NCBI GenBank assembly: GCA_902594255.1
Contig: CACJLN010000006.1
Location: forward strand, 1-64,000
Reading direction: 5' to 3'
Origin: an uncultured Pelagibacteraceae bacterium
GTDB lineage: Bacteria; Pseudomonadota; Alphaproteobacteria; Pelagibacterales; Pelagibacteraceae
Length of the DNA stretch: 64,000 bases
Every line of letters begins with the position of its first letter. The first letter of the stretch is position 1. This document shows positions 250 through 32,142 of the stretch, in pieces. The notes under the pieces were generated by a model. The model was not told the origin of the DNA, did not search any database, and worked only from the letters and a program-made list of their open reading frames with translations. The translations under genes and the position numbers were made by a program.

Positions 250-1470
250 ATGAGTGAATTTTCTCAAAATGGAATAATTTCTACCCTACACGACTTTGGA
301 ACTAGATCTACAGCCGAAATTGAAAAAGACTTATTAAAATTTTCTAAAGAAAGAAAAATGGAATTAATTTTACCTTGTCTTTATTCAGAATTAGAGGGGA
401 ATGCTTTACCAAATATTGTAGAGGAAATCAGCAAAACAAAATATTTAGATCATATTATAGTTGGTCTTGATAAGGCGAATGAAAAGCAAGCAAAAAAAGC
501 CTGGAAGTTTTTTAAAAAATTAAAAACACCCTTTTCTTTATTATGGAATGATGGACCTGCATTAAAAAAACTTGATAAAGAATTAAAGAAAAAAGATCTT
601 TCACCGAGCGAACTTGGCAAAGGAAGAAATGTTTGGTATTGCATAGGAATGTCTATAGCAAGAGACACAGCACGATCTGTTGCTCTTCACGATTGTGATA
701 TAAAAACTTACGATAGAAGAATGCTGGCAAAACTATTTTATCCGGTTGTAAATCCTCTTTTTAACTTTGAATTTTGTAAAGGATATTATCCAAGAATTGC
801 CAATGGAAAGATGAATGGTCGTGTTGCAAGATTATTAGTTTTTCCATTGTTAACAGCTTTAGAGAAGACAATTGGCACAAGTGATTACTTGGAGTTTATG
901 AAATCTTTTAAATATCCGTTAGCTGGAGAATTTTCATTTAGACGGAACGTTTTACCTGAATTAAGAATTTCATCAGATTGGGGTATTGAAGTTGGGATTT
1001 TATCTGAAATGCAAAGAAGCTTTTCTCCACAAAATATTTGTCAGGTAGATTTAGCTGACACTTATGATCACAAACACCAGATTTTATCTAGTGATGATGA
1101 GACTAAAGGTTTATCTAGAATGTCAATTGATATTATTAAAACATTTATAAAAAAGTTAGCCACTCAGGGAAATACTTTTAGTAGAGAAAAGTTTAGATCT
1201 CTTAAAGCAACTTATTATAGATCAGCTTTAGATTTGATAGATATCTATAGAAGTGATGCTTACATGAATGGTCTAAAATTTGACTCTCATATTGAGGAAA
1301 AAGCTGTTGAATTATTTGCAGTTAATATTATGAAAGCAGGTGAAGCTTTTATTCTTAATCCAATGGATACGCCTTTTATACCTACGTGGAGTAGAGTTAA
1401 AAGTGCTATACCTGATTTTTTATCAAGATTAAAAGAAGTTGTTAATGAAGATAACAAAAAATATTCTTAA
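250..1470 (+). CDS. gpgS: Glucosyl-3-phosphoglycerate synthase-like glycosyltransferase (GT81-type)
   Basis: ILPCLYSELEGNALPNI, LLWNDGPALKKL, GKGRNVW, LHDCDIKTYDRRMLAKLFYPV, CKGYYPRI, ICQVDL..YDHKHQ motifs typical of GpgS. Confidence 0.8.
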   Translation: MSEFSQNGIISTLHDFGTRSTAEIEKDLLKFSKERKMELILPCLYSELEGNALPNIVEEISKTKYLDHIIVGLDKANEKQAKKAWKFFKKLKTPFSLLWNDGPALKKLDKELKKKDLSPSELGKGRNVWYCIGMSIARDTARSVALHDCDIKTYDRRMLAKLFYPVVNPLFNFEFCKGYYPRIANGKMNGRVARLLVFPLLTALEKTIGTSDYLEFMKSFKYPLAGEFSFRRNVLPELRISSDWGIEVGILSEMQRSFSPQNICQVDLADTYDHKHQILSSDDETKGLSRMSIDIIKTFIKKLATQGNTFSREKFRSLKATYYRSALDLIDIYRSDAYMNGLKFDSHIEEKAVELFAVNIMKAGEAFILNPMDTPFIPTWSRVKSAIPDFLSRLKEVVNEDNKKYS

Positions 1471-3191
1471 TGGTCATTCAAAAAGATCAAAAAAAAATTA
1501 TATCTATACTAAAAAAAATCTATCGACAGATTTTAACTAAACAAAATATAGATTTATTAAAGAATGAAGTAGTACAATTAATCGAAGGCTTTAATAAAAA
1601 AAATCGAGTAAATAAGATAAATATCTCTGAAAAAACTTCACTAGTTATCAGCTATGGAGACAATATTTACTCAAGTCAATCAAGTTCAATGAAAATTTTT
1701 CAAAAATTTTTTCAAAAAAATTTAGAGAAATTATTTGATACAATTCATTTCTTGCCCTTTTATCCTTCAAGCAGCGATAGTGGTTTTGCCGTAAAGGACC
1801 ATTACCAGATTGATAAAAAAATTGGAAATTGGTCTGATTTAAAAAAAATTTCTAAATCAAAAAAAATTATGGCTGATGTGGTTATTAACCATGCTTCAGC
1901 GAGAGGTTTTTGGTTCAAAAATTTTTTAAAAAGAAAAAAACCTGGTAAAGATTATTTTTTAACAGTTAACTCAAAGTTTAATACTTCTAAAGTGGTAAGA
2001 CCAAGAGACCACAAATTATTAAAAAAAATTAAAATTTTTGAAAAAAATGATTATCTTTGGCGTACTTTTAGTCCAGATCAAATAGATCTAAATTTTAAAA
2101 ATCCCTCAGTGTTGCTAAGATTTATTAAAATTATAATCTATCTTATTAATAATGGTGTCACAATTTTTAGACTAGATGCTATTGCCTATCTATGGAAACA
2201 AAATGGCACTAAGTGTATTAATTTAAGTCAAACCCATGAAATCATAAAACTTTTAAGAGTTGTAACTAGTCTTCTTAATGTACAAACATTAATTATTACT
2301 GAAACAAACTTACCTGAAAAAGAAAATTTAAGTTACTTTGGAAAAAATAATGAGGCAAATTGGATTTATAATTTTTCTCTGCCACCATTATTAATTCACG
2401 CATTCCTATTTGAAAATAGCTCATATTTAAATCAATGGAGCAGAAAACTTCCATCTACAAAGCACGGAAATTGTTATCTAAATTTTATTGCTTCACATGA
2501 TGGTATAGGTATTAGGCCTACTGAGGGAATACTTAACGAAAAAACATTAAGCAGTTTTCTAAAAAGATTAAAAAAAAATGGATCAAAATTTTCTTACAGA
2601 AAAGTTCAAAATAAATCAAAAAAAGTATACGAAGCTAATATTACAGTTTTTGATGCATTAAGAAAATCTGATTTTGATCCAAAAGGTTTGTTTTTTTTAG
2701 AAAGGTACGTCTCTGCGCACGCTATAATGATCTCTTTTGAGGGTATCCCAGCTGTTTATTTCAATTCTTTATTTGGTAAATCTAATGATGAAGCAAAATA
2801 TATAATTACTGGGAACAATAGAGACGTCAATAGGTATAAGTGGAATTTTAATAATATTACTACAAAGCTTAGGAATAAAAAATCTAAACAAAGTATTTTC
2901 TATCGTAATATTGGGGCTTTATTAGAAATAAAAAGAAAACAAAAAGCTTTTCATCCCAATGCCTCAAGAATTAATATCAATCTTGGACCAAAAATATTTT
3001 GTTTTAAAAGAATAAGTAAAGATAAAAAACAATCAATTATTTGTATGACCAACTTATCGTCAAAGATACAAACTCCAAATTTTAAAAAAATTGGTAATTA
3101 TAGGGATCTGTTAAATTCAAATTTAAAATTTAGAGAAGAAACCTCATTAATTTTAAAACCGTTCCAAACAGTATGGTTAACAAATAACTAA
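1470..3191 (+). CDS. GH13 sucrose/glucosylglycerate phosphorylase-like enzyme
   Basis: GH13 motifs DVVINHAS, FRLDAIAYLWK, ITETNLPE, FIASHDGIG; overlaps stop of gpgS-like gene. Confidence 0.75.
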   Translation: MVIQKDQKKIISILKKIYRQILTKQNIDLLKNEVVQLIEGFNKKNRVNKINISEKTSLVISYGDNIYSSQSSSMKIFQKFFQKNLEKLFDTIHFLPFYPSSSDSGFAVKDHYQIDKKIGNWSDLKKISKSKKIMADVVINHASARGFWFKNFLKRKKPGKDYFLTVNSKFNTSKVVRPRDHKLLKKIKIFEKNDYLWRTFSPDQIDLNFKNPSVLLRFIKIIIYLINNGVTIFRLDAIAYLWKQNGTKCINLSQTHEIIKLLRVVTSLLNVQTLIITETNLPEKENLSYFGKNNEANWIYNFSLPPLLIHAFLFENSSYLNQWSRKLPSTKHGNCYLNFIASHDGIGIRPTEGILNEKTLSSFLKRLKKNGSKFSYRKVQNKSKKVYEANITVFDALRKSDFDPKGLFFLERYVSAHAIMISFEGIPAVYFNSLFGKSNDEAKYIITGNNRDVNRYKWNFNNITTKLRNKKSKQSIFYRNIGALLEIKRKQKAFHPNASRININLGPKIFCFKRISKDKKQSIICMTNLSSKIQTPNFKKIGNYRDLLNSNLKFREETSLILKPFQTVWLTNN

Positions 3192-3629: not shown

Positions 3630-5390
3630 TTATTGCCCCATAGCTTCTCTTGCTTGTTCAACAGAATAATTTGTACCATGAGCTGCATTATATGCTTCAA
3701 CTGCTGCTGCAAAACTATCATAACCAGCACCAGCTGCAACTGCCTCTAAATCAACACTAACACCTGCTGCACTTGCTGCAGCAATCGTATCTGCTACATC
3801 CTGTAAACTTGCACCAGCGGCCTGAGCAAGAGCACCAGCATCAAAAGAACTTATAGATCCATTTGAAAGAGCCTCTATTACATTTAAGTTATCTTGATAA
3901 GCCGAAGCATATTCTTCAACAGACCAATCTGCACCATATTGAGCATTCGCAAGATCTGTTAAATCAGCATAATTATTTATATCTAAACCTCTAAAATCGC
4001 CCATAGCTCTTGCAAAATCATCTAGAGAGAAATTAAATTTAAAAGACTCTGATACTTGCGACACTGTTTTTGCAATATCATCAATTGACTCATCAGAAAT
4101 TACATTTTTAAAATCCTCAATATCAATAATCTCTCTAAAATTTTGTATAGCAAGCTGAGCCTTTATTTCTAGTATTTGCTCGTCGGATAATACAACCTCA
4201 ATACCATTGCTATCTTGTACTTTTGTTGGTATTGGATTTTTCCAAGCATTAGCCCAATCACTCAAGGCCCATTTGTTCATATCTGCCGTTGAGGCTAATT
4301 GCATATTTAGTGAGTCTAATTTAACATTCAAATCGTCTCTATATAAATTTAAGAGCCTATTTACAGGTAGACCATTATTTTCAAGATTTAAAATATCTAA
4401 TTGAATTTTGTTTGACTTAATATTTCTATTATTTTTTGTAAATTTCGTTATCTCACCAAGAATTTTTAATTCTTCGTCCTTAAAGTCATTAAAATTTGCT
4501 TCTGTCAAATCTTGCTCAAATCGTTTAGGAAGATTGTTCTTTTTAAGATCTTTTAATATAAAATCTGCTAGTCTATAACCACTTAAGGCAACTAAAGGAT
4601 TTTCATTTGCTAAATCTGGTAATTCAACTATTAATGAACTTAATAACTCATACTCTCTAAAAATTTCAGCTTTTTTAAGAGATCTTTTCAATTTTTTAGA
4701 GTTTTTTTGATTTTCTTTTAAATATTTTTTCTTTGTAAGTCTTTCTTCTGTCAATTTTTCAATTGATTTAATTGTTAAAGCTAAATGTTTATTGACTTCT
4801 TTGTGGATCTTTAATTTTTTCTTTTCTTCTTTAGATAGTTTAATTTCTTTAGTTTTAGCTTGGTTGAATAACTTATACATCGTGAAATAAACCTCGATAG
4901 CCTCTTCAGGAGAACTTTCTATAGTTAGCCCTACTGCTTCTCTCATTGTTTGTCTTGCTTGATTTAAATTATGAATTTTCTGCATTACTTTTTTACCACT
5001 ATTTGGATATTTAATTTCAAATCTCTCTAAATCTTTTTCATGATCTTTTAATTGTTGCATGTAAAAAAACTCAAAATAAGCCATACCCTTCATCATCTGG
5101 TGTGGGTATTTATCTAAAAGGCCTTTTTGATCCACGAAAATTCGTTTGACTTCCTCTTGTGACTTTTTAGAACGTGCAACAAAAGTTTTTAATTTTTCTG
5201 GAAATAATTCTTTTGGTACAGTTTCAATTTTTTTGAATTTACCTATAGCTTTTAAATCTTCCTTAAATACTCCTAATTTTTTCTCTTTTTCGGTTCTTTC
5301 TAGGCCAGCACTACTTGTAATTAAAAGAGAACTAATAAATAAAATCAATGTTAGAGTTTCTAGTATTCTTTTTATATTTTGAAAAAACAT
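3630..5390 (-). CDS. Large exported protein: signal peptide, Lys/Glu-rich helical middle, Ala-rich C-terminus with internal repeat; unknown function
   Basis: The ORF track starts at 5450, but the Met at residue 21 (MFFQNIKRILETLTLILFISSLLITSSA) begins a signal peptide and gives a TAATG junction with the upstream gene; C-terminal ANAQYGADWSVEEYASAY / AYNAAHGTNYSVEQAREAMG repeat. Confidence 0.7.
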   Translation of the reverse strand: MFFQNIKRILETLTLILFISSLLITSSAGLERTEKEKKLGVFKEDLKAIGKFKKIETVPKELFPEKLKTFVARSKKSQEEVKRIFVDQKGLLDKYPHQMMKGMAYFEFFYMQQLKDHEKDLERFEIKYPNSGKKVMQKIHNLNQARQTMREAVGLTIESSPEEAIEVYFTMYKLFNQAKTKEIKLSKEEKKKLKIHKEVNKHLALTIKSIEKLTEERLTKKKYLKENQKNSKKLKRSLKKAEIFREYELLSSLIVELPDLANENPLVALSGYRLADFILKDLKKNNLPKRFEQDLTEANFNDFKDEELKILGEITKFTKNNRNIKSNKIQLDILNLENNGLPVNRLLNLYRDDLNVKLDSLNMQLASTADMNKWALSDWANAWKNPIPTKVQDSNGIEVVLSDEQILEIKAQLAIQNFREIIDIEDFKNVISDESIDDIAKTVSQVSESFKFNFSLDDFARAMGDFRGLDINNYADLTDLANAQYGADWSVEEYASAYQDNLNVIEALSNGSISSFDAGALAQAAGASLQDVADTIAAASAAGVSVDLEAVAAGAGYDSFAAAVEAYNAAHGTNYSVEQAREAMGQ

Positions 5391-6139
5391 TAACGATCTA
5401 CAATTTCTATTTTTTTTTCTTTGATAAATTCTAAAATTTGGGAACTGCAATTATCTATTTTGGATTTGTTTTCAGATCTAAGAACAACCGACACTCCTAA
5501 TTTTCCAGCATGAAAAAAAGGATAGCTACCAATTTCAACATCTTGATTTTGATTTTGAACTTGTTTTAGTGATTTTGCAATTTCACTTTCTACTGTTTTA
5601 AAATTTAATGTGTGACTTAATATAGGTTCACCTCCAACAATTTTATTTGTTAAGCCACCTAACATAGATTTCATTATTGAAGGTACACCTGGCAAACAAA
5701 ATACATTTTTTACACTAAATCCTGGAGCACCACTTGTTGGATTTAAGATCAACTCAGCATTTTCAGGCATCCAAGCCATTCTTTGTCTACCTTCATTAAA
5801 TTCGCCAGGTTGATAGTAAGATTCTAAAATTTTAAATGCCTCTTTATGTACTTCATATTTTAAACCGAAAGTTTTAGCAACAGACTCAGCGGTAATATCA
5901 TCGTGAGTAGGTCCTATCCCACCAGTTGTAAAAACATAATTATTTTCATTTCTTAATACATTAAGGGTATCAACAATAATTTTTTCAACATCAGGTATAA
6001 CTCTTACCTCGTTAACTTTTACTCCAATTGAATTTAACCAAGTTGCTAAAGTACTAGTATTAGTATCTTGTGTTCGACCAGAAAGAATTTCATTACCTAT
6101 AATTAGGATAGCAGCATTTACTTTTGTGTTTTTTGCCAT
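5390..6139 (-). CDS. CinA N-terminal/MoaB-like molybdopterin-binding domain protein
   Basis: AAILIIGNEILSGRTQDTN, FTTGGIGPTHDDITAE, LPGVPSIM; 249 aa, no C-terminal amidase domain. Confidence 0.8.
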   Translation of the reverse strand: MAKNTKVNAAILIIGNEILSGRTQDTNTSTLATWLNSIGVKVNEVRVIPDVEKIIVDTLNVLRNENNYVFTTGGIGPTHDDITAESVAKTFGLKYEVHKEAFKILESYYQPGEFNEGRQRMAWMPENAELILNPTSGAPGFSVKNVFCLPGVPSIMKSMLGGLTNKIVGGEPILSHTLNFKTVESEIAKSLKQVQNQNQDVEIGSYPFFHAGKLGVSVVLRSENKSKIDNCSSQILEFIKEKKIEIVDR

Positions 6140-31149: not shown

Positions 31150-31329
31150 TTATTTATTAAAACAATTATTAACTAAAATTGCCATTAAAATCCAAATTAC
31201 AAAAACTTCACCGTTTGTGAAGGAATAATCTGCTCCAGCAAAACCAGCAACAATATTTATAGCATAAATAATTATTGTAGAAATTACTAAGCTAAAAATT
31301 AAATTAATTAATCCAGTTACATATTTCAT
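31150..31329 (-). CDS. Small hydrophobic (2-TM) protein, 59 aa
   Basis: Hand-translated minus strand: MKYVTGLINLIFSLVISTIIIYAINIVAGFAGADYSFTNGEVFVIWILMAILVNNCFNK*; below ORF-track length cutoff. Confidence 0.5.
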   Translation of the reverse strand: MKYVTGLINLIFSLVISTIIIYAINIVAGFAGADYSFTNGEVFVIWILMAILVNNCFNK

Positions 31330-31423
31330 ATTTAAAGATTATCTATATTTCTGTCTAAAGCAAATTTAAAATTTCTATTTATAAGTGATTATTTTTTAAG
31401 ATGCGCGAATATTATAAAAATAC

Positions 31424-31484
31424 CAGGTTGTATTCAAACATTTTATTTTAATTTTAATTAAATATATTCCTTGAATACAACCTG
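31424..31484. repeat. Perfect 14-bp inverted repeat CAGGTTGTATTCAA...TTGAATACAACCTG, 33-nt AT-rich spacer
   Basis: Arms 31424-31437 and 31471-31484, read directly. Confidence 0.95.
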
Positions 31485-31489
31485 CTTAA

Positions 31490-31665
31490 AACTTAGTTTT
31501 TTACTAAGGAGGTTATTCAAATGAATCAAAAGCCACCTGACACTTAGCTGGGTAGCTACATATCAAAAAAACAATATAAGAAAAAAATCCATTTGGATTT
31601 AAAAGCCAAAAAGGCGATATAGAGGAGCTCTTTTGGTGAAAGATCTAAAAGAGCGAACCTCTGAC
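31490..31665 (+). ncRNA. Candidate structured RNA/leader with a series of hairpins (strand inferred from AAGGAGG-N8-ATG)
   Basis: Stems: 31492-31497/31503-31508; 31545-31549/31554-31558; 31585-31590/31595-31600; 31605-31607/31613-31615; 31621-31625/31658-31662 enclosing 31627-31634/31647-31654. Confidence 0.5.
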
Positions 31666-31674
31666 AAAAAAGAT

Positions 31675-32142
31675 TTAATGTGGTGCTCTAAACTTGCTAT
31701 GACAAGCCTTACAATTCGCCCACATAAATTTACCTAAAGTACTTCTAACATCATCCGAAGTTTCAATTATTTTCGTAAGTTGTATCATATCATTTGAAGA
31801 TTTAGTCATCAGAGCATTGAACTCGTCTTTATTTTCCCAAATAATTGGGAGAGCCTCTGTTTTAAATCCTTCTTTAGTATTTTCAGGAAAATATTCAATT
31901 AGTGTTTTGTAATTTTCGCTCATCTCAATCATTAAAGTTTTCGCTTTTTCAAATTCATCTTTACTTGCTAAGGCTTGCACCCTTTTTGCAGTACTATAAT
32001 TTTTACTAAAAAGCGCTTTTCTTCCCTTAATTATCTCCTCAACTGAAAGATCAAGTTCAGATTTTACTGGAAGTGACAAAATAACAAAAAATGAAATAAA
32101 GAAAATATACTTTAATATAATAATATTATATTTTAATAACAT
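31675..32142 (-). CDS. Exported cytochrome c' / c556-like protein
   Basis: Signal peptide; C-terminal MWANCKACHSKFR (CxxCH heme motif); four-helix type spacing. Confidence 0.85.
   Translation of the reverse strand: MLLKYNIIILKYIFFISFFVILSLPVKSELDLSVEEIIKGRKALFSKNYSTAKRVQALASKDEFEKAKTLMIEMSENYKTLIEYFPENTKEGFKTEALPIIWENKDEFNALMTKSSNDMIQLTKIIETSDDVRSTLGKFMWANCKACHSKFRAPH

Follow-up and report, generated by a model that had tools for sequence, protein, structure and literature searches.

A Conserved Structured RNA of Pelagibacteraceae with a Selected Micro-ORF, Best Read as a Free-Standing RNA Gene

Introduction

What is encoded in a gap of 345 nt between two genes of a SAR11 bacterium? The SAR11 bacteria are among the most abundant bacterial groups of the ocean and have very small genomes, and how genes are regulated in genomes so tiny, with no Hfq found in the set tested, is a question in itself. 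The intergenic gaps of SAR11 have a median length of 3 nt (PMC2704228). The stretch of 64,000 nt analyzed here (the window) belongs to a SAR11 (Pelagibacter-type) genome, the source assembly of which (G000) comprises 1.02 Mb in 36 contigs. The gap lies between a 59-aa open reading frame (ORF) at positions 31150–31329 and a cytochrome c′-like gene at 31675–32142, both on the minus strand. A first-pass annotation had proposed that positions 31490–31665 of this gap encode an undescribed structured RNA on the plus strand. The G+C content is 33.5% in this stretch, 26.7% in the gap, and 30.3% in the window.

Elsewhere in the window, two ORFs at 250–3191 resemble, by eye, a synthase of the glucosyl-phosphoglycerate type and an enzyme similar to sucrose phosphorylase, and may serve to make glucosylglycerate, a compatible solute. 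A 606-aa ORF at 3630–5450 (minus strand) has an alanine-rich, repeat-like C-terminal part.

Results

Three Hairpins Are Conserved by Compensatory Changes

All the hairpins that had been listed for the stretch, as well as a Shine-Dalgarno (SD) sequence followed by an ATG, were present in the window sequence and their coordinates were confirmed. The plus strand folded with an energy of −44.6 kcal/mol, compared with −28.2 ± 3.6 kcal/mol for the shuffled sequences (z = −4.5; reached by 0 of 200 shuffles). As the z-score of the minus strand was similar (−4.1), the strand cannot be chosen from the energy alone. A first DNA search found approximately 12 homologues in the same genus, and in their alignment the stretch was conserved over its entire length as a single unit. 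Two covariance models were used for further searches, R1 and R2, the second of which was built from 50 diverse members.

The conserved fold consists of three covarying hairpins. Hairpin A (31585–31600) is formed by AAATCC (31585–31590) and GGATTT (31595–31600) around an ATTT loop; 99.2% of its alignment cells were paired and three of its pairs had changed on both sides. Hairpin B (31605–31615) joins GCC (31605–31607) to GGC (31613–31615) around an AAAAA loop, and all three of its pairs had changed on both sides. Hairpin C (31621–31662), with which the conserved unit ends, has an outer stem of AGAGG (31621–31625) and CCTCT (31658–31662) and an inner stem of GCTCTTTT (31627–31634) and AAAAGAGC (31647–31654); both stems covary, and the internal loop between them (A opposite GAA) and the CUCUU sequence are conserved.

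Across 50 distinct sequences, 96.4% of the cells in hairpins A–C were paired, in comparison with 89.6% in the shuffles, and 91 double-sided changes, distributed over 15 pairs changed on both sides, were counted against 24 in the shuffles; it should be noted that these counts lean towards the structure, because the model to which the sequences were aligned already contained it. The covariation score of 0.255 (0.128 in the shuffles) was reached by none of 500 shuffles, and sliding the pairing partner by one to three columns destroyed the signal. When single sequences were folded independently, the same three hairpins were formed in nearly all members, including those from the genera g7 and g8, in which the sequences of the stems are quite different and the fold is kept. 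The alignment contained approximately 55 G–U cells and approximately 11 A–C cells (our own count), an excess that favors the plus strand.

These results demonstrate a structured RNA conserved by compensatory changes beyond the controls, the existence of which is near certain, and bear out both the structure and the strand that had been proposed. The list of hairpins stood only in part. The TAGCT (31545–31549)/AGCTA (31554–31558) hairpin is present in the window and is not conserved in the homologues, while CTTAGT (31492–31497)/ACTAAG (31503–31508), which precedes and overlaps the SD sequence (31492–31508), is conserved only loosely and is a low-confidence element. Counted from this hairpin to the last one, the RNA spans approximately 175 nt, and a start at the dyad described below would extend it to as much as approximately 240 nt. 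Helix 1 of the stored structure, in which the ORF region would be paired, was rejected since it has no compensatory changes and is explained by coding. The single-stranded linker at 31551–31584 is not conserved.

The Hairpins Are Preceded by a Micro-ORF with a Conserved C-Terminus

No ORF of at least 40 aa covers 31490–31665 on either strand, in agreement with the earlier statement that there is no convincing long ORF; what that statement had left unrecognised is a conserved ORF of eight codons, MNQKPPDT-stop (31521–31547, plus strand). Its ATG at 31521 is the one that had been noted in the AAGGAGG-N8-ATG signal, which thus starts a genuine micro-ORF. The SD sequence is perfect (AAGGAGGT, 31506–31513, plus strand) and its GGAGG is found in nearly all homologues. 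The micro-ORF varies from 6 to 9 residues, with an N-terminus variable in both sequence and length: the conserved end (31533–31547) is preceded by 2, 3, 4, or 5 codons, so the length changes by whole codons. An in-frame ATG was found in 147 of 147 loci, and the first ATG after the SD was in frame in 83 of 83 unique upstream sequences, both sets being related sequences rather than independent events.

In almost all homologues, the micro-ORF ends in Pro-Pro-Asp-Thr-stop. In the HTCC1062 type, ACA TAA stands in place of ACT TAG, and in the sister genus g7 the micro-ORF reads Met-Ser-Pro-Pro-Glu-Thr with the stop TGA (PPET*). These synonymous variants came from members found by the covariance models; codon frequencies taken from the many public loci that were fished by an exact pattern would be biased. 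Parsimony on a tree of 50 sequences gave 24 third-position changes against 4 others in the five end codons, while in the five preceding codons the changes were spread evenly over the three positions (29, 30, and 35). The two to five residues that precede PPDT have no shared composition. Judged by these codon changes, the C-terminal tetrapeptide (PPDT* or PPET*) is selected as a protein, and the rest of the peptide is free. The proposed structured RNA is thus not purely non-coding: its structure, strand, and homologues held, and to them has to be added a micro-ORF under protein-level selection.

One clade (L174–L176 and L178) has Leu-Pro-Asp-Thr (LPDT*) at this place and no Pro-Pro, which makes it a natural test of the need for the first proline.

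Directly 3′ of the stop codon stands a CTG (31548–31550, plus strand) that was present in 118 of 121 unique sequences in the genus, a set partly fished with that very sequence, and absent in g7. Its conservation in the genus suggests that the block is partly kept at the RNA level too. A longer protein made by readthrough of the stop was rejected, as the frame downstream of it is interrupted in different ways in different homologues.

A Promoter-Like Block and a Dyad Precede the RNA

The conserved unit starts approximately 110 nt before the SD with the block GAATnTAnnAAA, followed by GGTTGTATTCAA and, 33 nt further on, by an inverted copy of the latter. This region (31395–31484), which the first-pass annotation had missed, is promoter-like in its sequence. 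Column conservation in 123 unique homologues outlined a block of the type GAAT-n-TAnnAAA at 31395–31420 (plus strand), in which T31413 and A31414 are invariant. The −10-like hexamer TATAAA (31413–31418, plus strand) would put the start of transcription near A31425. The consensus scan found no standard sigma-70 site. The block was also considered as a general promoter, a possibility that was rejected because its 18-mer occurs elsewhere only with three mismatches and at the control frequency.

The left arm of the dyad (31424–31448, plus strand) consists of GGTTGTATTCAA (31426–31437) and an A/T-rich tail. It is 100% conserved at most positions in the 123 unique sequences and nearly invariant in the homologues from g1 and g8, and its 12-mer has 0–3 copies per genome, mostly at the RNA locus. 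The right arm (31460–31484, plus strand; TTGAATACAACC at 31471–31482) keeps its inner TTGAA, while the outer part is missing in approximately 40% of the homologues. With the left arm invariant and the right arm lost this often, there is no compensation; an RNA stem was rejected on these grounds, and a DNA site is the better reading of the dyad. We infer from this pattern that the block and the dyad are probably promoter and operator DNA. The inverted repeat as a whole (31424–31484), of the TTGnnnnCAA type, resembles an operator and is nearly private to the RNA gene.

The RNA Probably Forms Its Own Transcription Unit

In every one of approximately 150 loci with a called neighbor, the downstream neighbor was convergent. 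These neighbors fall into about 13 protein clusters and lie mostly 6–60 nt from hairpin C. The one exception was found among the distant members, where the locus L213 has a same-strand gene approximately 100 nt away. No intrinsic terminator with a T/U run was found in 31340–31740, and hairpin C is followed by no T run. The reverse strand of the genome G019 contains an empty site (L016), in which the same two genes stand 42 nt apart with no RNA between them, instead of the 345 nt in the window. This difference indicates that a unit of approximately 300 bp comes and goes whole. Judged by this arrangement, the RNA is best read as a free-standing RNA gene, a separate transcription unit facing a convergent gene, and this feature had also escaped the first reading of the locus.

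The RNA Is Patchily Distributed in Pelagibacteraceae

Of 397 genomes of the order, 149 contained the RNA according to the R1 model. R2 was run on 155 genomes, of which nearly all were at least 90% complete, and detected the RNA in 79; five of the positive genomes were from the second genus g7. Searches by genus gave the RNA in 6 of 6 genomes of g7 and in 1 of 41 genomes of g8. In a g8 genome, a glycine riboswitch lies near the RNA (L171, 2948–3034).

A search of 385 genomes of the class yielded no credible homologue beyond the family; the only hit outside Pelagibacteraceae (G540) was weak (E 0.04), had neither the ORF nor the hairpins, and was rejected. A sensitive search of 20 RNA-negative relatives left all of them negative (best E 0.16), which indicates that the absence is real and not an artefact of the search: the RNA is truly absent in many good-quality relatives. 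As far as seen, it appears to be confined to Pelagibacteraceae and patchy there, and the patchy distribution means that it is dispensable. A phage origin was also considered and rejected, as the conserved core, searched as one exact pattern, was not in 2.9 million viral contigs.

The RNA Is Likely Undescribed

Rfam 15 gave no match at the gathering thresholds in the whole window, and none that was credible at relaxed thresholds, nor did the RNA match any Rfam family in the five homologous loci that were scanned. ARAGORN and Rfam found no tRNA or tmRNA in the window. The earlier statement that no known riboswitch or housekeeping RNA is recognisable here thus agrees with the search that was suggested to check it.

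HIMB5, which we take to be genome G012, presumably carries the RNA, as does, on our assumption, HTCC7211. The RNA occurs in the cultured strain HTCC1062, at 762690–762876 (minus strand); the ends of the flanking genes in genome G066 match exactly the row 762678–763012 in Table 1 of Meyer et al. 2009 (PMC2704228), which identifies this genome as HTCC1062. In that table, the intergenic region 762678–763012 is given with 76 BLAST hits and no RNA, and only regions with more than 200 hits were followed. The same work describes another element of these bacteria, SAR11_0636, which is likewise considered a separately transcribed RNA but lies at another site (intergenic region 622388–622552).

HIMB5 was screened by Stav et al. 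2019 (PMC6429828), the main text of which reports short ORFs, one sRNA, HRC-1, and HRC-2, and no motif with the features of this RNA; the HIMB5 region, at approximately 794.8–795.15 kb, may be listed as a short ORF or a high-ranking candidate in the supplement of that paper. No description of this RNA was found in the literature compared, which included the main text of Stav et al. The RNA is likely undescribed, which falls short of proof.

Discussion

A purely non-coding RNA is the poorer description of this locus; a free-standing RNA gene that carries a micro-ORF of the pausing type fits it better. We put at roughly one in two the probability that its product is a regulatory RNA gated by ribosome pausing on the micro-ORF, a reading built on sequence and on analogy with known leader ORFs. 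A ribosome would be loaded efficiently at the strong SD and would be slowed or destabilized when adding the acidic residue after Pro-Pro, or at termination. The paused ribosome, sitting approximately 35–40 nt before hairpin A, would then decide the fate of the RNA, either how stable it is or whether a partner can reach hairpins A–C. In this model, the micro-ORF would act in the manner of an arrest-peptide leader ORF of the MgtL or TnaC kind, with the RNA itself as the output since there is no gene in cis. Candidate input signals would be the activity of EF-P or EttA, Mg2+, or charged tRNA.

Selection acts only next to the stop, which marks an arrest or pausing peptide rather than a functional peptide product. 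A working EF-P usually leaves only weak pausing at Pro-Pro-Asp, and this counts against the gated RNA, as do the LPDT clade without Pro-Pro, the conservation of CTG, the dyad, which has no place in the model, and the dispensability of the RNA. In E. coli lacking EF-P, PPD and PPN fell only among the pausing PPX motifs (PMC4140641). The early Pro/acidic EPDP motif of MgtL stalls or destabilizes ribosomes, and EttA acts on it (PMC11282234). By analogy with these cases, ribosomes would pause at Pro-Pro-Asp/Glu-Thr.

A trans-acting antisense sRNA, in which the micro-ORF would protect or time the RNA and a single-stranded part would pair with target mRNAs, is possible and agrees with a stand-alone, dispensable unit that has its own conserved upstream block and occupies variable genomic sites. 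We consider it unlikely, however: the most conserved parts are the end of the ORF and the paired hairpins, the single-stranded linker is not conserved, and no terminator-like U run is present. Moreover, Hfq was found in none of eight SAR11 genomes (G000, G066, G062, G063, G067, G068, G190, and G075), while the control genomes gave hits, which disfavors an ordinary Hfq-dependent sRNA.

The locus might also be a tiny mRNA, the peptide of 6–9 residues being a functional product for signaling or binding and the hairpins a stabilizing 3′ untranslated region. The protein-level selection on PPDT*, the strong SD, and the stand-alone unit fit such a message, and at least three short ORFs of undefined function are reported for HIMB5 in the main text of Stav et al. 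2019 (PMC6429828). Nevertheless, a functional peptide conserved in its last four residues only seems rather doubtful, and the conserved internal loop and CUCUU exceed what a stabilizing tail needs.

Of similarly low probability is a ribosome-docked RNA, in which the micro-ORF would only park a ribosome at a fixed place and the complex of the ribosome with the three hairpins would act. A still poorer explanation is a ribosome sink, in which a perfect SD would load one ribosome per RNA and stalling within nine codons would keep it there, lowering or storing free ribosomes; it would account for a near-perfect SD kept with a very short ORF that ends in a stall-type motif, but it would require a very high abundance of the RNA and make three covarying hairpins superfluous. 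A cis-acting leader (riboswitch or attenuator) is highly improbable in spite of the resemblance of the SD, short ORF, and hairpins to attenuators, because in nearly every locus the next gene, 6–60 nt off, is convergent, because these genes belong to many unrelated families, and because no terminator was found.

Three known systems come closest to the gated RNA that we prefer. The MgtL/TnaC-type leader ORFs, which depend on EF-P or EttA, likewise combine an SD and a very short ORF with hairpins downstream, have a Pro/acidic composition, and are under selection at the residues that are in the ribosome at the pause. Here, too, an SD precedes a short ORF that is selected as protein around the presumed stall site, but the regulated gene in cis that belongs to such leaders is not, and neither is the consistent same-strand downstream gene of riboswitches and other leaders, L213 excepted; this RNA is free-standing and occurs in many contexts. 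The dual-function sRNAs of the SgrS/SgrT kind are also stand-alone RNAs with both structure and a translated ORF, but the ORF described here has only 6–9 codons, and both marks of Hfq-dependent sRNAs are missing: Hfq in the eight genomes, and an intrinsic terminator with a U run in 31340–31740. Finally, tmRNA also stands alone and is both structured and equipped with a short frame that ribosomes translate; unlike it, this RNA has no tRNA-like part or alanine tag and initiates at an SD-ATG. If the ribosome-docked reading were true, the RNA would represent a second design beside tmRNA, a stand-alone RNA with a built-in frame that holds the ribosome. If the gated reading is true, this free-standing RNA and its pausing-type micro-ORF would add a kind of regulator that differs from the usual ones.
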